This document shows, in pieces, positions 6,476-59,081 of a stretch of DNA of 64,000 bases. The stretch's first letter is position 1; each line of letters begins with the position of its first letter. Source of the stretch: an uncultured Opitutia bacterium (GTDB taxonomy: Bacteria > Verrucomicrobiota > Verrucomicrobiia > Opitutales > Opitutaceae); contig CAIJZY010000014.1 in the NCBI GenBank assembly GCA_903825285.1, forward strand, positions 62,001 through 126,000, given 5' to 3'. The notes beneath the pieces were generated by a model that did no database searches, was not told the DNA's origin, and was given only the letters and a program-made list of their open reading frames with translations. The position numbers and the translations under genes were made by a program.

Positions 6476-6915
6476 GCAAAGCCCAGTTTGCCCAACGCCG
6501 CGACGGCCGCGTCGCCGCCCTCCAGTATCTCTTCGCGTGGAGCCTGAATTCCCCGCAAAACCTCGCCGAGGACCTGCGGACGTTTTTCTCCGAGCTGGAG
6601 CAGCCGCGCGAGCACTACGCGTTCGGCGAGGAGCTGATCCACGGCGTGATCGAGCACCAGGCCGACATTGACGCGCGCATCAAGGCGCTGGCCCACAACT
6701 GGGAGTTCGAGCGCATCGCCAAGATTGACCTCGCGATCCTGCGGGTCGCGATGTTCGAGATGCTCTTCCGCAAGGACATCCCGCCGGTGGTCTCGATCAA
6801 CGAGGCGATCGACCTCTCGAAGCAGTTCTCCAACGCCGACGCCAAGCGCTTCATCAACGGCATCCTCGACCGCGTGAAGGACCAGCTGGGCCGCGATGCG
6901 CGCAAGGCGGAGTAG
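6472..6915 (+). CDS. nusB: Transcription antitermination factor NusB
   Basis: NusB binds boxA RNA with NusE (ribosomal protein S10) and promotes antitermination on rRNA operons. The 147-residue all-helical protein has the family ends: an N-terminal RRDGRVAALQYLFAWSL helix for RNA binding, the central IKALAHNWEFERIAKIDLAILRVAMFEML and the C-terminal VVSINEAIDLSKQFSNADAKRFINGILDRV. The start overlaps the ribH stop by 4 bp. The TAG stop is followed closely by a GTAGCGG-type heptamer element and then ftsY. Confidence 0.94.
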   Translation: MSKAQFAQRRDGRVAALQYLFAWSLNSPQNLAEDLRTFFSELEQPREHYAFGEELIHGVIEHQADIDARIKALAHNWEFERIAKIDLAILRVAMFEMLFRKDIPPVVSINEAIDLSKQFSNADAKRFINGILDRVKDQLGRDARKAE

Positions 6916-6925
6916 GTCTGGTCGT

Positions 6926-7059
6926 GAGTAGCGGGTAGCGAGTAGTGAGCAGGCTGATGTTCTCGGCGGGTGCCGCCACGACTTCACGTCGCGAACTTGC
7001 TGGAAGCGCTGACCCGGACGAATTTCTACTCGCTACCCGCTACCCGCTACCCGCTACTT
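6926..7059. repeat. GTAGCGG heptamer inverted repeat between nusB and ftsY
   Basis: The left arm at 6926-6950 steps as GTAGCGG GTAGCGA GTAGTGA. The right arm at 7026-7059 is the inverse with one more unit (CTCGCTAC CCGCTAC CCGCTAC CCGCTAC). The right arm ends about 5 bp before the ftsY ATG, so the hairpin would sit in the ftsY leader. The same heptamer recurs at 29962 and 36963. Confidence 0.7.
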
Positions 7060-7064
7060 CCGGC

Positions 7065-8000
7065 ATGTTTGGCCTGTTTAAAAAATTCAAAGCCGGCTTC
7101 GCCAAGACGGTGTCCGCCATTGCGGCAAAGACGGCCGGGATCTTCGGCGGGCGGAAGATCGACGCGGCGTCGCTCGGCGAGCTGGAGGAGGCGCTCTACA
7201 CCGCCGACTTCGGCGTCGAGACCACCACCGAGATCCTCGCCGAGATCAAGCAGGCCTACGCCCGCGACCCCGGCCTGCAGGGCCGCCAGGCGGCCGAGAT
7301 CGGCGCGACGGTCCTCAAGCGCGTGCTGGCCGGCTCCGAGGGCGTGCTGGCGCCCGTGGCGCCCGCGTCGCCGGACCGGAATCCCACCGTCATCGCGATG
7401 ATCGGCGTCAACGGCTCGGGCAAGACCACCACTTCCGCGAAGCTCGCCTGGCGGCTCCGGCAGGAGGGCGGCAGCGTCACGCTGGCGGCGTGCGACACTT
7501 TCCGCGCCGCGGCCGTGGAGCAGCTGAAGACCTGGGCCACGCGGCTCGAGCTGGAGATCGTGGCGAGCCACACCGGCGCCGACGCGGCGGCGGTGGCCTT
7601 CGACGCCTGGCAGGCCGCGCGGGCGCGCGGGCGCGACTACCTGATCGTGGACACCGCCGGGCGGCTGCACACGAAGTCCAACTTGATGGAGGAACTGGCG
7701 AAGATCCGCCGCGTGCTCCAGAAGCACGACCCGACCGCGCCGCAGCACCGCTGGCTGGTGGTGGACGGCTCGCTGGGCAGCAACTCGATCGAGCAGGCGA
7801 AGGTGTTTCACCAGAGCTTCGGGCTCACCGGGCTGGTCGTGACCAAGCTCGACGGCACCAGCCGCGGCGGCGCGCTGGTGGGCATCTATCGTCAGCTGCG
7901 GATCCCGATCTATTTCCTCGGCCTCGGCGAGCAGGCCGAGGACCTGCAGCCGTTCAGCGCGGACCTCTACGCGAAGGCGGTCTTCGGGCTGGACGGCTAG
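7065..8000 (+). CDS. ftsY: Signal recognition particle receptor FtsY
   Basis: FtsY docks SRP-ribosome complexes at the membrane and hydrolyses GTP in a twin complex with Ffh. The 311-residue protein consists of the N domain (residues about 1-95, starting with the amphipathic MFGLFKKFKAGFAKT) and the G domain. It lacks the long acidic A region of E. coli. Visible motifs are G1 GVNGSGKTTTSAKLA, CDTFRAAAVEQL, G3 DTAGRLHTKSNLMEEL and G4 TKLDGTSRGGALVGI. The segment that is normally DATTGQN reads DGSLGSNS here, a change worth comparing across relatives. I chose the ATG at 7065 because residues before it would translate the heptamer repeat. Confidence 0.94.
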   Translation: MFGLFKKFKAGFAKTVSAIAAKTAGIFGGRKIDAASLGELEEALYTADFGVETTTEILAEIKQAYARDPGLQGRQAAEIGATVLKRVLAGSEGVLAPVAPASPDRNPTVIAMIGVNGSGKTTTSAKLAWRLRQEGGSVTLAACDTFRAAAVEQLKTWATRLELEIVASHTGADAAAVAFDAWQAARARGRDYLIVDTAGRLHTKSNLMEELAKIRRVLQKHDPTAPQHRWLVVDGSLGSNSIEQAKVFHQSFGLTGLVVTKLDGTSRGGALVGIYRQLRIPIYFLGLGEQAEDLQPFSADLYAKAVFGLDG

Positions 8001-8212: not shown

Positions 8213-10333
8213 TCAGAAATCCCACGCCAGACCGCCATAGAGCCCGCGGCGCTCGCCGTACTGTGGCGCGCCCACGCCGATGCCGGAGCCGTCGCGCAGT
8301 TCGTAGACCTCGTCGAACACGTTCACGGCCTCGAGGCGGGCGCGCAGCTTTTCGTGCCGCGCGAACCGGAAGGTGTGCTCAAGCCCGAGGTTGAGCGGAT
8401 GATAGGCCGGCAGCTGGCCGGTGTTGGCGAATCCCCGGCGCAGGCCGCTGCCGTAGAGCAGGTCGGCGTACACGAGCGTGTGATCCAGCGTGTACGAGAG
8501 GCCGGTCGAGGCGGTGAGACGCTGGTCGTGGTCGAGGTAGACGTCATGGGCCGCGATGTACGCCAGCTCATCCGGGTCGAACTGGAACTCGCCGCTGGTG
8601 ATCTCCCGGCCGGTCGCGCGGCTGACCGCGAGGTTGGCGTAGGCGGTGAATTTTTCCCGGGTGTAGTTGACGGAGAACTCCGCGCCGGTCACGCGGCCCG
8701 TGCGGTAGTTGAACGGGGCGAAGATGATCGCCTGCCCGAACTGGCCCTCGTCGAGCTGGTTCCGCGCCCGCTTGAGGTAGCTGTCGAGGGTGAAGGAAAG
8801 CTCGGGGCTGACCTTGTGGCTGAGGCCGAGGTCGAAGTAGTGCGACCGCTCCGCGCGCACGGGGGAGCTGGTCGTGACCGCGGCGGCGTTGGTGGTGCCG
8901 GCGAACCGGGCCACGTCGCCGGTCTGCAGGATCTCCAGCGGCGGCGGCGTGAAATACCGCGCGTAGCCGGCGTGCAGGCTGGTGGCCTCGCTGAGCTTGA
9001 ACACGGCGTTGACGCGCGGGCTGAGCTGGCCCTCGCGGGTGTAGGCATCCACGCCGTCGGCCCGTGCCCCGTAGTTGAGCGTGAGGCGGTCGCCGAGCTT
9101 CCACTCGTCCTGCGCATAGACGCCGTAGAGCCGGCCGCGCTTGCCCTGGTGGTCCGCGAGGGTGAACGGCACGTTGGAGGTCACCGCGCCGCTGTCATCC
9201 GCCGCGAACACCGCCGTCGCGCTGTCCGTGTTGGCGCGGTCCGCCGACACCAACAGCCCGCCGCGCAGGGTGTGGTTGTCACTCGCCGCCCAGCGCGCGT
9301 CGAACTCGAATCCGTTCGAGACGATGTCGCGCCGCACGTCGCTCGCCACGCCGTTGAAGATCAGGTCGCCCACCGGGTCGGGCGTGAAGTGCAGGCGGCT
9401 GGAGCGGTTGAAGACGACGGCCTGGAGGCTCGCCGCGCCGAGGGTCTGCTGGTACGCGACCACGGCGTAGCGGTTGGCCTCGCGCTGGTTCTCGTCCAGC
9501 TGGGCGGAATCGAACGTCGTGACCCCGGGCAGGGTGAAGGCCGGCGACTGGTCCGGGTTGTTGGGGATCTGGAAGCGCGACTCCGAGCCGCTGACGATCA
9601 GGTTGAGCCGGCTGCTGGGGCTGAGCAGCACGGAGAAGTAGCCGAAGCCCTTGAACTGCTCGCTGTGGTCATGGAGCGCCGTAGTCCCGGCGGTGGGGTT
9701 CTCGATGCCGAGGTCGCCGGAGTCGAAGCTGCCGCTCAGATAATAGTCGAGGCGGCCCTGGCTGCCGCCGGTCTCGACGCTGGGACGGAACCGGTCGTGT
9801 GCGCCCCCGTAGAGGGACAGCTCGCTCGCCGCCGCCGTGGCGCCGCTCTTGGTGTGGATGTCCACGACGCCGGAGGTCCGGTAGCCGTACTGCGCCGGCA
9901 GCGACCCGGTCAGGACCGCCATCGTGGAGACGAAGCGCGTGTCGAGCTCCGAGCCGAAGCCGCTGATCCCCTCGGGGAGGAGGACGTCGTTGATGCGGTA
10001 CTGGAGGTTGGCGTGCTCGCCGCGCAGGTGGACCTGCCCGCCGGAGTCCTCCGCGACGCCGGGCACGCGGAGCAGCACCTGGTTGAACGAGGCGTCGGCG
10101 CCCTGCGACTGCGCGGAGATCTGGATCGCGGTTAGCTCGTAGGAGGTCGCGCCGAGGCTGGGGACGATGTCCTCGCGGGCGCGGTCGAGGTGGTCGGTGA
10201 CGATGAATTTCTCAAGCTCGACCGGCGCCTTGTCGGCGGGGGGAGCGGCGGGGTCGGGCGCGGCGGGCGTCTGGGCCCGGAGTCCGACGGCGGTAATAAT
10301 GAGGCAAAGGGAGAATGAGCGGAAAGAGTGCAT
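8213..10333 (-). CDS. TonB-dependent outer-membrane receptor, probably for a metal ligand
   Basis: The 706-residue protein starts with a signal peptide (MHSFRSFSLCLIITAVGLRA) and a proline/alanine-rich linker. The plug domain follows (residues about 35-160: VELEKFIVTDHLDRA as a TonB-box-like region, FNQVLLRVPGVAEDSGGQVHLRGEH, ITDVLLPEG-like NDVLLPEG and GVVDIHTKSG). The rest is a 22-strand barrel of alternating aromatic strands that ends in the terminal phenylalanine of LYGGLAWDF. The C-terminal LEAVNVFDEVYELRDGSGIGVGAPQYG is typical of a clade often found with metal-handling genes. Upstream lie a His-containing small protein and a protein with a CusF-like domain, so copper or another metal is a plausible substrate. 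This is inference. I chose the ATG at 10333 because of the signal peptide. Confidence 0.9.
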   Translation of the reverse strand: MHSFRSFSLCLIITAVGLRAQTPAAPDPAAPPADKAPVELEKFIVTDHLDRAREDIVPSLGATSYELTAIQISAQSQGADASFNQVLLRVPGVAEDSGGQVHLRGEHANLQYRINDVLLPEGISGFGSELDTRFVSTMAVLTGSLPAQYGYRTSGVVDIHTKSGATAAASELSLYGGAHDRFRPSVETGGSQGRLDYYLSGSFDSGDLGIENPTAGTTALHDHSEQFKGFGYFSVLLSPSSRLNLIVSGSESRFQIPNNPDQSPAFTLPGVTTFDSAQLDENQREANRYAVVAYQQTLGAASLQAVVFNRSSRLHFTPDPVGDLIFNGVASDVRRDIVSNGFEFDARWAASDNHTLRGGLLVSADRANTDSATAVFAADDSGAVTSNVPFTLADHQGKRGRLYGVYAQDEWKLGDRLTLNYGARADGVDAYTREGQLSPRVNAVFKLSEATSLHAGYARYFTPPPLEILQTGDVARFAGTTNAAAVTTSSPVRAERSHYFDLGLSHKVSPELSFTLDSYLKRARNQLDEGQFGQAIIFAPFNYRTGRVTGAEFSVNYTREKFTAYANLAVSRATGREITSGEFQFDPDELAYIAAHDVYLDHDQRLTASTGLSYTLDHTLVYADLLYGSGLRRGFANTGQLPAYHPLNLGLEHTFRFARHEKLRARLEAVNVFDEVYELRDGSGIGVGAPQYGERRGLYGGLAWDF

Positions 10334-13804: not shown

Positions 13805-14020
13805 GATACCGGATACCGGAGTCCGATCCCCGAACATTCATTGCTGGATACTCCAAATCAAAGGGCAGTTCGTCGGTCAAAGCTGGGTCGGGCACTTCGA
13901 TGTTCGAAGTTGGACGCTGGGCGTCCGACGTTCGTCCGGAAAAGCCCGGGCCCGGCACGTGACGCGGCCCAGAAGAATGGCTTGGCTCCCTCCGCTAACC
14001 GGTATGCGGTATTCGGTATT
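13805..14020. repeat. Heptamer-unit inverted repeat in the leader of the CobW-type gene
   Basis: The outer left arm at 13805-13832 reads ATACCGG ATACCGG AGTCCGA. The outer right arm at about 13995-14020 reads AACCGGT ATGCGGT ATTCGGT ATTC and stops 1 bp before the ATG at 14022. Between them, at 13893-13940, lies a second 7-bp array (GATGTTC GAAGTTG GACGCTG GGCGTCC GACGTTC). This fills most of the 268-bp divergent gap. Confidence 0.6.
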
Positions 14021-14021
14021 C

Positions 14022-15170
14022 ATGTCCGCTCCTGACCCAGTTCCCGGTCCGCCGCCGCCCGTCACGGTGCTGTGCGGCTTCCTCGGCGCGGGCAAGACCA
14101 CGCTGCTGCGCCACCTGCTCGGGCAGGCCGCGGGCCGCAGCTGGGCCGCGGTGGTGAACGACGTGGCGGCGGTCAACATTGACGCGCAGCTCGTCGGCCC
14201 GGTGCCCGCGGGCAAGGTGGTCTCGATCGGCAACGGCTGCGTGTGCTGCACCGTGCGCGACACCCTGGCCGAGACGGTCGCGGAGCTCTGCGCGACCGGC
14301 ACCTACGAGCACGTCCTGATCGAGACGACCGGCGTGGCCGAGCCGCGGGCGATCGCGGGGCTGTTCACCCGCCGCAACGCCTTTGGCCGGAGCCTCGGGG
14401 ACTTCGCGAGGCTGCAGGCGCTGGTGACGGTGATTGATGCGCGGCATTTCCTCGACGAGTGGCGGCGCGGGCGCGACCGGCCGCCGCCGGAGCCCGGGAT
14501 GCCGAAGCCGGTCTTTGAGCTGATGGTGGACCAGGCGGAATGCGCCGACGTCCTGCTGCTGAACAAGTGCGACCTGGCCGACGAGGCGGAGCTCGCGCAG
14601 GTCGAGGCCGTCCTCCGGGCGCTGAACCCGCGCGCCGAGATCGTCCGGGCCGAGCGCGGCCAGGTGGCGAGCGAGTTCCTGCTGGACCGGCCGCGGTTCG
14701 ACGCCGCGGCGACACTGGGCGCGGCGCAGTGGATCCGCGTGCTGCAGCCGCCGGCCGGCGGTCAGGCGGTGCGTCCGACCCCGGTCGCGGCGACGCACGA
14801 GGATGTCTATGGGATCCGCAGCCTCGTGTTCGAGTCGCGCCGGCCGTTTGACCGCGAAAAGTTCCTGGCGCTGACCCGGCAGGGGCTGCCCGCGGGGCTG
14901 CTCCGCGCCAAGGGCTTCTTCTGGCTGGCCCAGCAGCCGGCGGACATCGGCTTCCTGTCTGTGGCGGGCGGGGTGGCGCGGACCGAGTTTGTCGGGACCT
15001 GGGTCGCGGAGCTGCGCGAGCGGGGCGTCATCACCGACGCCGAGATCCCCGCGGCGGCCCGCGCCCGCTGGGTGGAGCCGACGGGCGACCGCCGCCAGGA
15101 GCTCGTGTTCATCGGCACCGGCCTTGATGAGGCCGGCTGGCGGCGGACGCTGGAAGGCTGCCTGGCCTGA
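14022..15170 (+). CDS. CobW/CobP47K-family GTP-binding metallochaperone
   Basis: G3E-family GTPases of this type load metals (Zn, Co or Fe) onto client enzymes. The 382-residue protein shows G1 GFLGAGKTTLLRHLL near the start. It also has the metal-binding CxCC motif in GNGCVCCTVRDTL, the G3 region ETTGVAEP, G4 NKCDL and the C-terminal CobW_C domain (GIRSLVFESRRPFDREKF, LLRAKGFFWLAQQP). The His-rich loop typical of Zn-specific members is absent. The gene stands alone, divergent from the NTPase/TonB cluster that may handle metals. I chose the ATG at 14022 (MSAPDPVPG); upstream frame residues translate the repeat. Confidence 0.9.
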   Translation: MSAPDPVPGPPPPVTVLCGFLGAGKTTLLRHLLGQAAGRSWAAVVNDVAAVNIDAQLVGPVPAGKVVSIGNGCVCCTVRDTLAETVAELCATGTYEHVLIETTGVAEPRAIAGLFTRRNAFGRSLGDFARLQALVTVIDARHFLDEWRRGRDRPPPEPGMPKPVFELMVDQAECADVLLLNKCDLADEAELAQVEAVLRALNPRAEIVRAERGQVASEFLLDRPRFDAAATLGAAQWIRVLQPPAGGQAVRPTPVAATHEDVYGIRSLVFESRRPFDREKFLALTRQGLPAGLLRAKGFFWLAQQPADIGFLSVAGGVARTEFVGTWVAELRERGVITDAEIPAAARARWVEPTGDRRQELVFIGTGLDEAGWRRTLEGCLA

Positions 15171-16330: not shown

Positions 16331-17554
16331 TCAGGCCTCGCACTTGAGCACATAGACCACGCCCTTTTCCGAGCCGATCGCGAGCTGGAGATCGTCGGGG
16401 GACCACACGAGCTTGGTGGCGGCGTTGGGCATGCGCACGGTGGCGCGGAGCGGCTGCTTGCGCTCGGGACTCCAGAGCTGGACGACGCCATCCTGCGATG
16501 CCGTGGCGAGCAGGCCGTGCGTGTGCTGGAAGGCGACGGCGCAGACCTTCGCGTCGTGCGGCAGCATCCCGGGTTCGCGGCCCTCGGGACCCGCGCCGGC
16601 GCAGTCCCAGACGCAGCAGTCCCGTCCGCCGCCCGTGGCCAGCCAGCGGCTGGTGCAGTCGAAGGCTAGTTCCTTCACCTTGCCCTCGTAGCCGCTCATC
16701 TGGAGTTCCATGTCCTGCTCCGGCACCCAGAGGTGCACGGAGGGATCCTGGTTGCCCGACACGAGCCACTTGCTGTCGGGCGACCACACCAGCGCGTGGA
16801 TGCCGTTGGCGTAGGGAAACTCCTTCTGGATCACGAAGTCGTCGGCGTCCCACAGGCACACGCCCCCGAAGTACGACACCGCCACGCAGCCGCCGGCGGG
16901 CTGCCAGGCGACCGCGGAAATCGTCTTGGGCGCGGGCTTGAAGGTATGGGCCACCGAGCCATCGGACCGCAGCGCGAACAGGTTTTTTCCGGCGGAGGCG
17001 ACGAGCGATCCAGAGGTCAGAGGCCAGAGGTCAGAGGTCAGATTCGGACCGGTACCTGAGTCACTGCCAGCAGCCTTCTGCCCACTGACCTCAGCCTTCT
17101 GCCCACTGACCTCAGGCTTCTGATCTCTGACCTCCCCGGCCCGAGCCCTCGGCCTCCACGCCAAGTGCTCGACCCAAGCAGTGCCGAGCGTCGCCGTGGC
17201 GATATGCTGCCCGGCCGTCGCGTCCCAGAATTTCACCGCGCCATCCTGCCCGCCGGTGGCGAGGAGCAGACCAGAGGTCAGAGGTCGGATGTCAGAAGTC
17301 AGGTTCTTGAGCTCATCACCGGCCTCAGGCTCCTGACCTCTGACCTCTGACGTCTGACCTCTGACCGCCCATGCCAGGCAGTTCGTGCCATCGGCGTGCC
17401 CGGGCAGGTCGGCCCGGCGCGCGCCGTCCGCGGCGGCGAAGAGCGACACCGGACCGCTGCCGGCGGCGGCCGCCAGCATCGTGCCGTCGGGCGACCAGGC
17501 GAGGTCGATGACGTAGTCCTCGAGCGTCGCGGCCCAGTGTTTCGTGAGTTGCAT
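16331..17554 (-). CDS. WD40-repeat protein with two in-frame repeat-element insertions
   Basis: This cytosolic beta-propeller of 407 residues shows about seven WD-type repeats: VIDLAWSPDGTMLAAAAG, LLLATGGQDGAVKFWDA, AVAWQPAGGCVAVSYFGGVCLWDAD, ALVWSPDSKWLVSGNQDPSVHLW, ELAFDCTSRWLATGGGRDCCVWD, AVAFQHTHGLLATASQDGVVQLW and KLVWSPDDLQLAIGSEKG. Two stretches are foreign to the fold: residues about 64-95 and 138-182. They are rich in SEVRGQ / EVSGQK and NLTSD..PLTSG and are translations of 7-bp CAGAGGT repeat elements. Each lies right after the LAW strand of consecutive blades, where other blades have a short SPDG turn. I chose the ATG at 17554 (MQLTKHW); 17575 is also possible. Such propellers usually serve as protein-binding scaffolds, and no partner is evident. 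Confidence 0.85.
   Translation of the reverse strand: MQLTKHWAATLEDYVIDLAWSPDGTMLAAAAGSGPVSLFAAADGARRADLPGHADGTNCLAWAVRGQTSEVRGQEPEAGDELKNLTSDIRPLTSGLLLATGGQDGAVKFWDATAGQHIATATLGTAWVEHLAWRPRARAGEVRDQKPEVSGQKAEVSGQKAAGSDSGTGPNLTSDLWPLTSGSLVASAGKNLFALRSDGSVAHTFKPAPKTISAVAWQPAGGCVAVSYFGGVCLWDADDFVIQKEFPYANGIHALVWSPDSKWLVSGNQDPSVHLWVPEQDMELQMSGYEGKVKELAFDCTSRWLATGGGRDCCVWDCAGAGPEGREPGMLPHDAKVCAVAFQHTHGLLATASQDGVVQLWSPERKQPLRATVRMPNAATKLVWSPDDLQLAIGSEKGVVYVLKCEA
17011..17134. repeat. CAGAGGT heptamer inverted repeat inside the WD40 gene (copy 1)
   Basis: The left arm at 17011-17043 reads CAGAGGT CAGAGGC CAGAGGT CAGAGGT CAGAT. The right arm at about 17080-17134 holds inverse units (CTGACCTC, CTGACCTC, TCTCTGACCTCC). 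The whole element stays in frame with the surrounding protein and encodes residues about 138-182. Confidence 0.75.
17268..17366. repeat. CAGAGGT heptamer inverted repeat inside the WD40 gene (copy 2)
   Basis: The left arm at 17268-17303 reads CAGAGGT CAGAGGT CGGATGT CAGAAGT CAG. The right arm at 17328-17366 holds the inverse TGACCTC TGACCTC TGACGTC TGACCTC TGACC. It is in frame and encodes residues about 64-95 of the WD40 protein. Confidence 0.75.
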
Positions 17555-17614
17555 GGAGGTGCCGAAGTAGAACACAGCGGTCGCGGAGGGAAAGCGGGGA
17601 TTTGGGGCGGGCAG

Positions 17615-29216: not shown

Positions 29217-29966
29217 ATGATTCTGCTCGGCCTCAACATCGACCACTGCGCCACCGTCCGCCAGGCGCGCTACCGCGAGGCTCCCGCCAGTGCCGGGGGC
29301 ATGGTGGAACCCGATCCCGTCACGCTCGCGCTCCTCGGCGAGCGCGCCGGCGCCGACGGCATCACCGTCCACCTGCGCGAGGACCGCCGCCACATCCAGG
29401 AGCGCGACGTCTGGCGCCTGCGCGAGAGCCTGGCGACGCGGCTCAACCTCGAGATGGCGTGCACGCCGGAGATGACGGCCTTCGCGCTGAAGCTGAAGCC
29501 CGACACGGTCTGCCTCGTGCCGGAGAACCGAGAGGAGATCTCCACCGAGGGCGGCCTCGACGTCGTGGGGAACCGCGCGCGGGTCAAGGCGTGCGTGGAC
29601 GCGATGAACGGCGCGGGCATCCAGACGAGCCTCTTCATCGACCCGGAGGAGGCCCAGATCGACCTCGCCGCGAAGCTGCGCGCGCCGATCGTCGAGCTGC
29701 ACACCGGCGCCTACGCCAACGCCTATTTCACGCCGCACCGCGCGAAGGAGTTCCAGTCCCTCCGCCTCGGCTGCGTGCGCGCCCACGAGCTCGGCCTGGT
29801 CGTCAACGCCGGCCACGGCATCAACTACGTCAACATCGCCGAGATCCGCGCCCTGCCGCACCTCCACGAGCTCAACATCGGCCACAGCATCATCAGCCGC
29901 GCGCTCTTCACCGGCATCGACGAGGCCGTGCGCGAGCTGAAGGCCCGCATGAATCCCGGCAAGTAG
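29217..29966 (+). CDS. pdxJ: Pyridoxine 5'-phosphate synthase
   Basis: PdxJ condenses 1-deoxy-D-xylulose 5-phosphate with 3-amino-2-oxopropyl phosphate to pyridoxine 5'-phosphate, the last ring-forming step of the DXP-dependent vitamin B6 route. The 249-residue TIM barrel has the family motifs LNIDHCATVRQARY at the start, GADGITVHLREDRRHIQERDV with a catalytic His, LNLEMACTPEM with the catalytic Glu, LELHTG-like VELHTGAYANAY and VVNAGHGINYVNI with the second His. The end, LNIGHSIISRALFTGIDEAV, is also typical. The start is the ATG at 29217. The TAG stop is part of a GTAGCGG heptamer element, and acpS follows, the common pdxJ-acpS order. Confidence 0.95.
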   Translation: MILLGLNIDHCATVRQARYREAPASAGGMVEPDPVTLALLGERAGADGITVHLREDRRHIQERDVWRLRESLATRLNLEMACTPEMTAFALKLKPDTVCLVPENREEISTEGGLDVVGNRARVKACVDAMNGAGIQTSLFIDPEEAQIDLAAKLRAPIVELHTGAYANAYFTPHRAKEFQSLRLGCVRAHELGLVVNAGHGINYVNIAEIRALPHLHELNIGHSIISRALFTGIDEAVRELKARMNPGK

Positions 29967-30069
29967 CGGGTAGCGAGTAGCGAGCATGACCCAGACAATC
30001 ACCTCCGTGTTTACCCACCGATCCGCGAGCGTTTCCTACTCGCTACGCGCTACTCGCTCCCCGCTACTT
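29962..30069. repeat. GTAGCGG heptamer inverted repeat between pdxJ and acpS
   Basis: The left arm at 29962-29984 (AGTAGCGGGTAGCGAGTAG) contains the TAG stop codon of pdxJ. The right arm at about 30036-30069 is the inverse (CTACTCGCTACGCGCTACT) and ends 5 bp before the acpS ATG. It is the same kind and position as the nusB-ftsY copy. Confidence 0.7.
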
Positions 30070-36962: not shown

Positions 36963-37103
36963 GCGTAGCGAGTGGTGCGTAGCGAGTAGCGGGCAGGGCG
37001 GACGCAAGCGTGCGCAGGGCGGAGGGACAGGCAATACTCGAGCAACGGCGGTGAAGCCGGAAGGCTGGGATGCTCGCTACCCGCTACTCGCTACTCACTA
37101 CTA
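36963..37103. repeat. GTAGCGG heptamer inverted repeat between a hypothetical gene and the HIT gene
   Basis: One arm at 36963-36994 reads GCGTAGCGAGTGGTGCGTAGCG with AGTAGCGGGC. The other at 37072-37103 is CTCGCTACCCGCTACTCGCTACT with ACT units. On the - strand the element begins at the TAG stop of the upstream gene (37101-37103) and ends 2 bp before the HIT start. Confidence 0.7.
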
Positions 37104-40213: not shown

Positions 40214-41140
<927 letters not shown>

Positions 41141-41150
41141 TGGGGCGGGC

Positions 41151-41252
41151 AGTTGAAAGTTGAGGGTTGAAAGTTGAAAACAGAGGCCCCGTGGCACTCG
41201 CCAGGTCGCCTCGGCTCGGGCCTTTCAACATTCAACCCTCAACTTTCAACTA
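41151..41252. repeat. GTTGAAA heptamer inverted repeat
   Basis: The left arm at 41151-41180 reads GTTGAAA GTTGAGG GTTGAAA GTTGAAA. The right arm at 41222-41252 is its inverse with one mismatch over about 28 bp. The 41-bp loop has no gene. It lies in the convergent gap between the UXS and transglutaminase genes and could act as a bidirectional terminator. Confidence 0.8.
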
Positions 41253-41270
41253 CGCCCCAGCATCCCCTGC

Positions 41271-42137
41271 TCAGCCCACCGCCACCGGATCCAGCGCGGT
41301 GACGAGCACATCCACGGTCATCTTGCGCTCGCTGGTGCCGCGGTAGGTGCCCTTGATCGGGGCGACGTCGGAGTAGTCGCGTCCGACCGCGACCCGCACG
41401 TAGCGCTCGTCGGGCTGGACGTTGTTGGTGGGATCGAGCCCGCGCCAGCCGAGGCCGGGCAGGTAGACCTCGACCCAGGCGTGGGTGGCCTGCGCGCCGC
41501 GGAGCTGGTCGGCGGGGCCGTTGTAGAGGTAGCCGCTGACGTAGCGGCACGGGATCTTCAGTGAGCGGCACACGCCCAGCATCACGTGGGCGAAGTCCTG
41601 GCACACGCCGCGCTGCAGCCGCAGCACGTCGCGCATGTGGGTGTGCACGTGCGTGGCCGCGGGCGTGTAGGCGAAGTGGCGGTGGATGTGGTCCGTGATC
41701 GCGAGGGCCACCTGCCAGGTGTCGGTCCGGTCCGCCGCCATGTCGAGGCCGAGCCGCCAGGCGGCGGGGCCGGGCTCGACGAACCGGCTGGGCTGCAGGA
41801 AGTCGTGGCAGCGCTCGAGCTGGCCGCAGGCGCGCTCCATGTCGGCGAGGGGCGTCGTGGCCTGGTCCGGCGGCAGCGGCGGGGTGGTCGCGGTGGACAC
41901 GCGCGCGGTCGCCTCGATCGTGAGCGTGGCGTGCGGCTCGGCGAGGTCGAAGAGGTGGACGCAGTTGAACTGGAAATCGAGGTAGTGCGTCAGCCGCGTG
42001 GACGGCAGCACCTTCAGCATGAAGCTGTGGCAGGTCTGGCCCTCGGCGGTGGCGGGCTGGAGGCGGGCCTCGTTGAAGCTCTCGCGGACCGGCGCGGCGT
42101 ACACGTAGTGGGTGCGATGGAGGACCTGCAGCTTCAT
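41271..42137 (-). CDS. Transglutaminase-like cysteine protease family protein
   Basis: The 288-residue protein has the N-terminal beta-sandwich seen before bacterial transglutaminase cores (MKLQVLHRTHYVYAAPVRESFNEARLQPA). The core carries the catalytic triad: Cys in GVCQDFAHVMLGV, His in QATHAWVEVYLPG and Asp in GLDPTNNVQPD. It lacks a signal peptide. It is the third gene of a conserved set with the alpha-E and circularly permuted ATP-grasp genes upstream. In that set it probably cuts or cross-links the peptide bond made by the ATP-grasp enzyme; this is an inference from published neighbourhood analyses of these families. Confidence 0.9.
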   Translation of the reverse strand: MKLQVLHRTHYVYAAPVRESFNEARLQPATAEGQTCHSFMLKVLPSTRLTHYLDFQFNCVHLFDLAEPHATLTIEATARVSTATTPPLPPDQATTPLADMERACGQLERCHDFLQPSRFVEPGPAAWRLGLDMAADRTDTWQVALAITDHIHRHFAYTPAATHVHTHMRDVLRLQRGVCQDFAHVMLGVCRSLKIPCRYVSGYLYNGPADQLRGAQATHAWVEVYLPGLGWRGLDPTNNVQPDERYVRVAVGRDYSDVAPIKGTYRGTSERKMTVDVLVTALDPVAVG

Positions 42138-42162
42138 CGGCCAGGGGCGGCCCGGAGGGCCA

Positions 42163-42264
42163 GGGGACAAGGGACAAGTGACAAGGAACAGGAGGAAGAA
42201 GGGCGGGAAAAAGTCATCGGTTGGGGCTCACAACTTGTCACTTGCCACGTGAAACTTGTCACCT
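42163..42264. repeat. GGGACAA heptamer inverted repeat
   Basis: The left arm at 42163-42190 reads GGGACAA GGGACAA GTGACAA GGAACAG. The right arm at about 42231-42264 is ACAACTTGTCACTTGCCACG with TGAAACTTGTCACC after it. It sits between the alpha-E and transglutaminase genes, both on the - strand, and touches the last codon of the former. Confidence 0.7.
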
Positions 42265-43302
42265 GCGAACGGCGGCCGCCGTTCGCCGCTGCTGCTGCTG
42301 CTCCTCCTGCTGCTGGAGCTGGCCGTTGTCGGGCGTGAGGAAGGGCTGGAAGATGTAGGCCTGGAACAGCGCCTCGCCGATGGCGTTGAGCCGCGCCTGC
42401 AGCTCGTCGATGTAGGCGTGCAGGCCCGTGCCGAAGATCTCCGCGGCGGTGGTGAACTGCAGCTGGGCCAGCAGCCGACCGGAGAGCCGCTCGGCGTCGT
42501 TGGCGAAGCGGTCGGAGGCGCTGCCCGAGATGCCGCGGAGCGTGGCGTTGAGCGCCTGCACGCAGAACCGCACCGAGCGCGGGAACTCCGGCGAGAGCAG
42601 CAGGTACTCGGCGACCAGCGCCGGCTGGACGTCGGCGCCGTGCATCGATTTGTAGGCGTCCCACGCGCTGCACGAGCGCAGCACCGCGGCCCACTCGAGC
42701 GCGCCGGCCTGGTTGACCGGCGCGGGGGCGCCGTGCGCCGGGAACACGGTGTGGCGCACGTCCAGGATCCGCGACGTCTTGTCGGCGCGCTCCAGGTACA
42801 TGCCGGCCTGCTGGAAGAGCCAGCCCTCGTTGCGGACCACGGTGGCGTTGGTCAGGCCCTGCAGGTAGAGCGAGCTGGCCTTGATCTCGTGGAAGAACTC
42901 CACCGGGCTCGAGTCGAGCTGCTGGCGCGCCTGCGGCGAGCGGAGGAACAGGTAGAGGCGGTTGAGCTCCTCCCACACCTCGATCGTGATCTGGTCGCGG
43001 ACCATGCGGGCGTTTTCCCGCGCCTGGGTGACGGCGGCGAGGATCGAGTTGTGGTTTTCCGGCTGGAACACGAGGAACTCGGTCACGGTGCGCCCGGAGG
43101 CCCGGCCGTGGAGCGTGTTGAACAGGGTCTCGTCACCGGCGCTCTGCACGATGGGGATCCACCGGTCGGCGAGCGCGCGGTCGTCGAGCGACCGGAAGTC
43201 CAGGAAGAGCTGGAGGTTCACGTCCACCAGGCGCGCGGTGTTGTCCGCGCGCTCGAGGTAGCGGCTCATCCAGTAGAGGGAGTTGGCGACGCGGGAGAGC
43301 AT
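42259..43302 (-). CDS. Alpha-E domain protein (DUF403)
   Basis: The 347-residue, all-helical protein of the alpha-E family starts with the typical MLSRVANSLYWMSRYLERADNTARLVDVNL. Family signs are AGDETLFNTLHGRASGRTVTEFLVF, NARMVRDQITIEVWEELNRLYLFL, QAGMYLERADKTSRILDVRHTV and FCVQALNATLRGI. The end is low-complexity (QQQEEQQQQRR). The function is not known. The gene always travels with circularly permuted ATP-grasp proteins, and it lies here 12 bp downstream of that gene, on the same strand. The transglutaminase gene follows after a heptamer repeat. It is likely a scaffold or partner of the ligase. Confidence 0.93.
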   Translation of the reverse strand: MLSRVANSLYWMSRYLERADNTARLVDVNLQLFLDFRSLDDRALADRWIPIVQSAGDETLFNTLHGRASGRTVTEFLVFQPENHNSILAAVTQARENARMVRDQITIEVWEELNRLYLFLRSPQARQQLDSSPVEFFHEIKASSLYLQGLTNATVVRNEGWLFQQAGMYLERADKTSRILDVRHTVFPAHGAPAPVNQAGALEWAAVLRSCSAWDAYKSMHGADVQPALVAEYLLLSPEFPRSVRFCVQALNATLRGISGSASDRFANDAERLSGRLLAQLQFTTAAEIFGTGLHAYIDELQARLNAIGEALFQAYIFQPFLTPDNGQLQQQEEQQQQRRTAAAVRR

Positions 43303-54092: not shown

Positions 54093-54115
54093 GTATGACT
54101 GCGGTTGGATTCAGA

Positions 54116-54240
54116 CGAACGCCGAACGTCCAACGCCGAACGCCCAACGTCGAAGGATTGTCCCGCGGCGGCGCCGCGCGCTGGAATCCACTTCGGGGTT
54201 CGACGTTGGGCGTTCGATGTTCGGCGTTCGTTTTCGTCCG
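54116..54240. repeat. CGAACGC heptamer inverted repeat before gmd
   Basis: The left arm at 54116-54155 reads CGAACGC CGAACGT CCAACGC CGAACGC CCAACGT CGAAG. The right arm at about 54191-54230 is the inverse but lacks one heptamer. The core 54142-54186 is the reverse complement of 23681-23724 with few changes, so these are two copies of one element. Confidence 0.8.
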
Positions 54241-58886: not shown

Positions 58887-58903
58887 CGCGCGCTGCGCGC
58901 GCG

Positions 58904-59070
58904 CAGAGGTCAGAGATCAGATGTCAGAGGTCAGTCGGATGAATCAGGGGCGAGAGCGCTGCCTGGGTCGTCGGCGGTGAAAGAGGAATTTGCACTTTTC
59001 GCATCTGTCGTCTGAATTTCCCCTCCTTTCCGATGCGCTCCAGCATCCAGCCTCTGACCTCTGACATCTG
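58904..59070. repeat. CAGAGGT heptamer inverted repeat between prfB and the 477-aa gene
   Basis: Left arm 58904-58934: CAGAGGT CAGAGAT CAGATGT CAGAGGT CAG. Right arm 59051-59070: CCTCTGACCTCTGACATCTG. Same heptamer as the two copies inside the WD40 gene. A run of alternating GCGC (58887-58903) precedes it. The 116-bp middle has no gene. Confidence 0.75.
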
Positions 59071-59081
59071 TTTTCACAACA

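Follow-up and report, generated by a model that had tools for sequence, protein, structure and literature searches.

Results

A WD40 gene with two heptamer hairpins

The window analysed here, a stretch of 64,000 nucleotides, contains a gene for a WD40 repeat protein that adjoins the gene for a CobW-type GTPase (Table 1). The open reading frame runs from 16331 to 17575 on the minus strand, with a Met start at 17554, and contains no frameshift. The repeated blades of a WD40 beta-propeller were recognized both by Pfam (PF00400, E 9.8e-31) and by matches to WD40 structures in the PDB (down to E 4e-39). Comparison of forms of the gene with and without the inserts described below gave dN/dS values of 0.13-0.23, about 0.15, which places the gene under purifying selection and means that it works. 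A structure prediction from the single sequence returned a pLDDT of 35 and was set aside as useless.

The initial annotation had assigned two elements of CAGAGGT heptamers to this gene, each directly after an LAW strand where other blades have a four-residue turn. The coordinates bear this out, and the other turns read SPDG, QPAG and SPDS; blades 2 and 3 carry the inserts at their A-B turns. Each element is made of two inverted heptamer arrays that flank an unrelated spacer and encodes a loop of 32-44 residues. In loop 1, the CAGAGGT array at 17272-17303 has its inverted partner arm at 17324-17366. Inverted-repeat analysis delimited two arms of 40 nt (17272-17311 and 17324-17363) that are 83% complementary and separated by a 12-nt spacer, with a predicted RNA fold of -63 kcal/mol (z -6.3). 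In loop 2, the array at 17011-17042 pairs with an arm at 17062-17134 that has been rebuilt by a 21-bp tandem repeat (RNA fold z -3.1); TRF reported 7-bp arrays plus the 21-bp repeat at 17071-17134. The seven-residue peptide period noted earlier is real, and EVSGQKA EVSGQKA is the product of this 21-bp repeat. Judging from the architecture of WD40 blades, both inserts are probably surface loops of the protein.

Table 1. Features in the 64,000-nucleotide window.
Feature	Position	Strand	Evidence
WD40 repeat protein, 407 aa	16331..17554	-	Pfam, PDB, 28 orthologues
Loop 1 element, inverted CAGAGGT pair, residues about 64-95	17268..17366	-	Repeat and inverted-repeat analysis
Loop 2 element, CAGAGGT array and partner arm, residues about 139-182	17011..17134	-	TRF and inverted-repeat analysis
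Codon 90, CGA, in the single loop 1 unit with a would-be in-frame TGA	17285..17287	-	Sequence and lattice count
Codon 177, TGG, in the single loop 2 unit with a would-be in-frame TGA	17024..17026	-	Sequence and lattice count
TAGCGGG-family inverted pair, ends just before ATG	6903..7067	.	
CCGGTAT and CGAACGY arrays, weakly paired, upstream of CobW-type gene	13806..14022	.	
TAGCGGG-family inverted pair across intergenic gap	29961..30069	.	RNA fold z -7.7
TAGCGGG-family inverted pair	36971..37102	.	
GTTGAAA-family inverted pair	41138..41262	.	RNA fold z -7.8
GGGACAA-family inverted pair, weak	42135..42291	.	
CGAACGY-family inverted pair	54114..54230	.	RNA fold z -6.6
CAGAGGT inverted pair, further copy	58901..59075	.	

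About ten heptamer elements were found in the window, with the units TAGCGGG, CGAACGY, GTTGAAA, GGGACAA, CCGGTAT, CGGATCC and CAGAGGT. TAGCGGG pairs lie at gene edges, as seen for those beginning at 29961 and 6903 and for another at 10171-10319 of stretch L049; at 29961 the upstream frame terminates at a TAG within the left arm. The right arms stop a few bases before an ATG, so that the intergenic sequence becomes the loop of the hairpin. The TAGCGGG arms may have an effect on the start of translation or the end of transcripts.

The same turns are empty or differently filled in orthologues

We compared 28 orthologues of the WD40 gene from the same bacterial family. The loop 1 region ranged from 39 nt, which corresponds to an empty turn, to 168 nt. 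At the same two turns some orthologues have minimal loops, and others hold heptamers, of at least eight families in all, or GTAG...CTAC REP-like dimers. Loop 1 is filled by CAGAGGT in G000, G010, G005, G026, G034 and G027, by CTCTTCC in G002, and by single arrays of TCAGCC or CTCAGCT in G009, G014, G033 and G036. Loop 2 holds CAGAGGT in G000 and G032, CAAAATC in G012, CAGAACT in G034, CCGGTAT in G026, CAGGGTT in G016, CCCGGCT in G033, and GTAG...CTAC REP-like palindromes in G009, G005, G014, G027 and G010. A third turn is filled in G027, by a GACAGGT element. In-frame GTAG...CTAC or similar REP-like dimers were seen in loops that hold heptamers elsewhere, namely in WD40 loop 2 (L002, L003, L005, L008 and L028) and in release factor RF3 (L302).

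When the loops were left out of the tree, the filled G002 and the empty G006 grouped as sister species with support of 100/99, which shows gain or loss of a filling between them. Another pair of sisters, G005 and G009, have the loop 2 REP in common and differ in loop 1. The CAAAATC filling occurs in one of only two genomes rich in CAAAATC, G012, and fits copying from a resident pool; the other, G013, is also rich in this unit, yet its loop 2 is unfilled. CTCTTCC gave four matches in G002, two of them within the loop itself, and the pool there is therefore small. A possible exchange of arms around a common spacer was also considered for loop 1 of G010 and G002, and was rejected because the spacer homology was not above that of shuffles.

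The earlier proposal that these elements insert or grow in DNA, the two taken together, is supported by the loop-free orthologues (for example G011 and G006) and by the other fillings at the same turns. Tolerance by the protein as surface loops is likewise supported, 'surface' being deduced from the blade architecture. Among the WD40 orthologues, none was seen that carried the same peptide loop without the DNA repeat. Beyond that first reading, our analysis adds the inverted-pair structure, further heptamer families, a stop-codon signature, more host proteins and the spread through the genome.

Heptamer hairpins in other proteins

In the source genome, 19 of the 53 sampled arrays fall within long frames of high GC3, many of these being upstream of the true start codon. 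Three clear in-frame cases other than WD40 were identified with Pfam: an SNF2 helicase, RF3 and a U32 peptidase. In the SNF2 gene of G000, motifs I and Ia are separated by a GTTGAAA hairpin. Related arrays or remnants occur in G002, G003, G004 and G008, and the loop is short in G010, G011, G013 and G017; the fillings in the five congeners are inherited, not new. In the source-genome SNF2 insert (L051 5892-5979), the replaced third unit is GTAGCGAG, a unit of the TAGCGAG family. In RF3 of the source genome, the linker that follows the G domain contains a CCAAGGG hairpin. At RF3, G014 has CTCAACC repeats and a REP-like dimer, G005 and G009 have TCGTCCC repeats, and G003, G012, G013, G015 and G016 are without an insert. 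The U32 peptidase contains a GTTGAAA hairpin in the source genome, and most relatives are about 25 residues shorter; several of its orthologue matches (L318, L321, L323, L336 and L337) hold one TGA.

In-frame stop codons are replaced in single units

One strand of CAGAGGT (TCTGACC) and one of GTTGAAA contain TGA, and thus any three consecutive units, in any frame, place one TGA in frame. Along the heptamer lattice of the arrays in the WD40, SNF2 and U32 loops, TGA was retained at 0 of 11 in-frame positions, which read CGA, TGG, CGT, AGC, CCG and others, versus 31 of 32 out-of-frame positions (Fisher p 2e-9), with the lattice ends anchored on intact units, the SNF2 copies related by common descent, and the lack of TGA in an open frame true by definition. 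The informative part is that arrays long enough to contain a stop persist with only the offending unit altered. The single-arm fillings CTCAGCT and CAGAACT lie in a stop-free orientation.

Abundance in the source genome and its relatives

Stretches adding up to 767 kb of the source genome were scanned for tandem periods at a threshold of at least 18 of 21 matches at the lag. Period 7 gave 23 arrays. At the remaining periods not divisible by 3 the count was 0-1 (period 14: 8), and at those divisible by 3, to which coding repeats belong, it was 0-7 per period. An inverted partner within 250 bp accompanied 33 of 53 period-7 arrays collected at a looser setting, versus 0 of 53 with shuffled flanks. 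The period-7 arrays and their inverted pairing are not due to chance.

Counted as overlapping pattern matches and not as elements, the CAGAGGT-type pattern occurs 72 times in the source genome (reversed-pattern control, 0), 202 times in G017, 45 times in G032 and 14 times in G027. It gave zero matches in the congeners G001, G003, G007 and G008 and in 20 of 20 genomes from other families of the same order. TAGCGRG matched 79 times in the source genome versus 0 for its reversed control and was absent from the genomes of the order's other families, and G008 holds 61 TAGCGRG and 91 GTTGARR matches. The reversed control for GTTGARR was dropped, as it matches the same arrays off-phase and is not independent. 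The source genome thus has many heptamer families, whose occurrence among sister species is patchy.

In six further genomes of the family, the stretches sampled contained period-7 arrays built from still different units; none was found in 80 kb each of G024 and two genomes of other families. CTCTTCC matches number 51 in G043, which belongs to a different family of the order and has no CAGAGGT or TAGCGRG matches. In G017 we counted 26 arrays per 100 kb, in stretches partly picked for matches (L131-L135). The unit of one G017 array shifts from TCTGACN through TCTGGCC and TCAGGCT to TCCGGCT with the period staying at 7, which indicates that families are fluid and the period constant.

Distribution in other phyla

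An exact scan of GTDB genomes for GTCAGANGTCAGANGTCAGA, which has 18 fixed bases and an estimated 7 or so chance matches in the whole collection, matched at least 119 stretches. The titles among the matches listed include Cyanobacteria, Acidobacteria, Nitrospirae, Bacteroidetes, Deltaproteobacteria, Planctomycetes, Kiritimatiellota, Verrucomicrobia, Chloroflexi, Ignavibacteriales, Clostridiales and others, with the CAGANGT unit also in Nostoc and Okeania. Most of the matches listed are longer arrays. An inverted partner was found for 24 of the 119 listed, versus 2 when shuffled, and pairing is therefore stronger in the source genome than elsewhere. In one Nitrospirae contig (L177) an array of CAGAAGT adjoins one of GCTGAAC/CGAACGC, and both units also occur in the window.

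Viral contigs, scanned as well, also contain such arrays, and the matches listed are a lower bound. Those filed as viral under L386 and L350 (IMGVR_UViG_3300033076_001536) and L359 have many CAGANGT arrays, one of them more than 10 in 25 kb. These arrays reflect either carriage by phage or misfiled host DNA.

Discussion

Origin of the loops

The best reading of these data is that both WD40 loops represent copies of STRR-like heptanucleotide hairpin repeats, which are dispersed and are tolerated in frame, as are RPEs and intragenic REPs. Selfish-looking hairpins would thus have settled in loops of working proteins and given them extra protein loops. We consider it likely that hairpin copies were dispersed first and were then shaped by slippage and filtering through the reading frame. 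Copies would arise or land at many places, and the intragenic survivors would be those that combine a permissive turn, a length divisible by three and loss of the unit with the in-frame TGA. The host protein would be left with a probably flexible surface loop of 30-45 residues that may have no function of its own. New copies may come from the genome's own pool via a single-strand hairpin or a template switch during replication, and arrays would afterwards grow and shrink in 7-nt steps through slippage. Along this route we observed dispersed, patchy families, identical turns whose filling family varies from species to species, fillings gained or lost between sisters, an intact host under selection, and a substitution wherever TGA would lie in frame.

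Several points weigh against this reading. The genomes compared revealed no insertion in progress, and some orthologous fillings, such as those of SNF2, are inherited. The unfilled loop 2 of G013 and the rarity of CTCTTCC in G002 also fit it poorly. No target-site duplication was noted at the WD40 sites, in a comparison short of a base-by-base alignment to a clean empty site. Spacers within a family had no homology, and in a test for template switching the arms were no closer to their own partners than to other copies (p 0.11). These two results point to no particular moving unit, and they rule out a MITE with a conserved core. More tentatively, a single widespread process could make and spread heptamer hairpins in many phyla, in which case they would form a class of mobile DNA conserved in its 7-base period rather than its sequence, and one that gives rise to new protein loops.

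Arrays might instead never move: replication slippage at small hairpins present by chance would both create and lengthen them where they are, and the families would look shared since slippage favours certain 7-mers. The constant period with drifting units in single G017 arrays would fit this account, as would the unrelated spacers and the occurrence of CAGANGT in many phyla, mostly as single arrays among the matches listed. Heptamers are also the commonest long simple repeats in many bacteria, and one proposal explains them by the polymerase footprint (Mrazek 2007, as cited in PMC4679880). However, slippage alone does not produce inverted partners, which accompany 33 of the 53 arrays. It also counts against this account that a unit matched 72-79 times in one genome has no match in several congeners. 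We regard this explanation as unlikely.

Somewhat less probable still is that the elements are REPIN-like, with a Y1 (RAYT) transposase moving them in the form of single-strand hairpins. Their inverted doublets with variable spacers recall REPINs (PMC3116915), Opitutus terrae has the most intragenic GTAG REPs (PMC3733652), REP-like dimers occupy the same loops, and the source genome has three Y1 matches. The TAGCGGG unit contains GTAG, which is also present in the REP-like dimers, but most heptamer families are without GTAG, and it is absent from the stem base of CAGAGGT, GTTGAAA, CAAAATC and other units. Y1 genes do not track heptamer repeats in the genomes compared, and no tie to Y1/RAYT as the driver was seen; G008 and G027 both bear repeats and gave no Y1 match, although as drafts they may miss genes.

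Selection of the loops for a protein function, such as a binding surface of the WD40 propeller, with the DNA repeat merely coding the loop, is very improbable: the same two turns are filled across many species, but sequence, length and element type vary by species, a sister species is empty, and the unrelated SNF2, RF3 and U32 proteins hold the same repeats. An assembly artefact or a pseudogene can practically be dismissed: the source genome is a 62-contig draft, but similar loops occur in independent genomes, some of one or two contigs (G014 and G016), and the WD40 frame is open with the dN/dS given above.

We return to the preferred reading, dispersal of hairpin copies followed by filtering. 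At the protein loops, filled and empty sites can be compared between orthologues, and the one stop that is replaced shows coding constraint acting as a filter on repeats; together these make the spread of heptamers testable in culturable relatives. For annotators, the repetitive loops SEVRGQ, TSDLWPLTSG and FNxQPSTFN are DNA repeats and not protein motifs.

Comparison with known repeat systems

The literature searched held nothing direct on heptamers in Verrucomicrobia or on repeats in Opitutaceae. Cyanobacterial STRRs are heptanucleotide repeats with hairpins (Mazel 1990, as cited in PMC2670836), and heptamer repeats have been described with GGGAATC in Xanthomonas and Nostoc (PMC4692102) and with TAACTGA in Beggiatoaceae (PMC4679880). 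All are degenerate 7-bp tandem units, dispersed and mostly intergenic, with hairpins in cyanobacteria. The repeats studied here are likewise tandem degenerate 7-bp units, with period 7 only, and are dispersed (72 and 79 matches). STRRs and heptamer repeats have been described as intergenic or under-represented in coding DNA, whereas here they lie in frame in conserved proteins, form inverted pairs and occur as several families per genome.

RPEs are in-frame palindromic elements of Rickettsia (Ogata 2000, 2002, as reviewed in PMC10969869), and some RPE families end in CGTC (PMC3733652). The elements resemble RPEs in being palindromes of about 100-150 bp that sit in frame in unrelated genes and are tolerated by the protein (here WD40, SNF2, RF3 and U32). 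RPE families, however, have conserved bodies without heptamer units, and the arms here are heptamer arrays around unrelated spacers. REPINs are inverted REP doublets (PMC3116915); with GTAG REPs, BIMEs and REPINs our elements share inverted doublets of variable spacer and, as in Opitutus terrae (PMC3733652), intragenic copies. REPs differ in their short stems, GTAG tag and dedicated RAYT transposase; most heptamer families here are without GTAG and show no tracking with Y1.

Within the literature searched, in-frame heptamer hairpin loops are new, as are the repeated filling of one loop by various families and by REPs and the signature of replaced stops. Heptamer repeats have lacked a mechanism since they became known in 1990, and palindromes in protein-coding sequence have been described mainly from Rickettsia and for REPs; both meet here.
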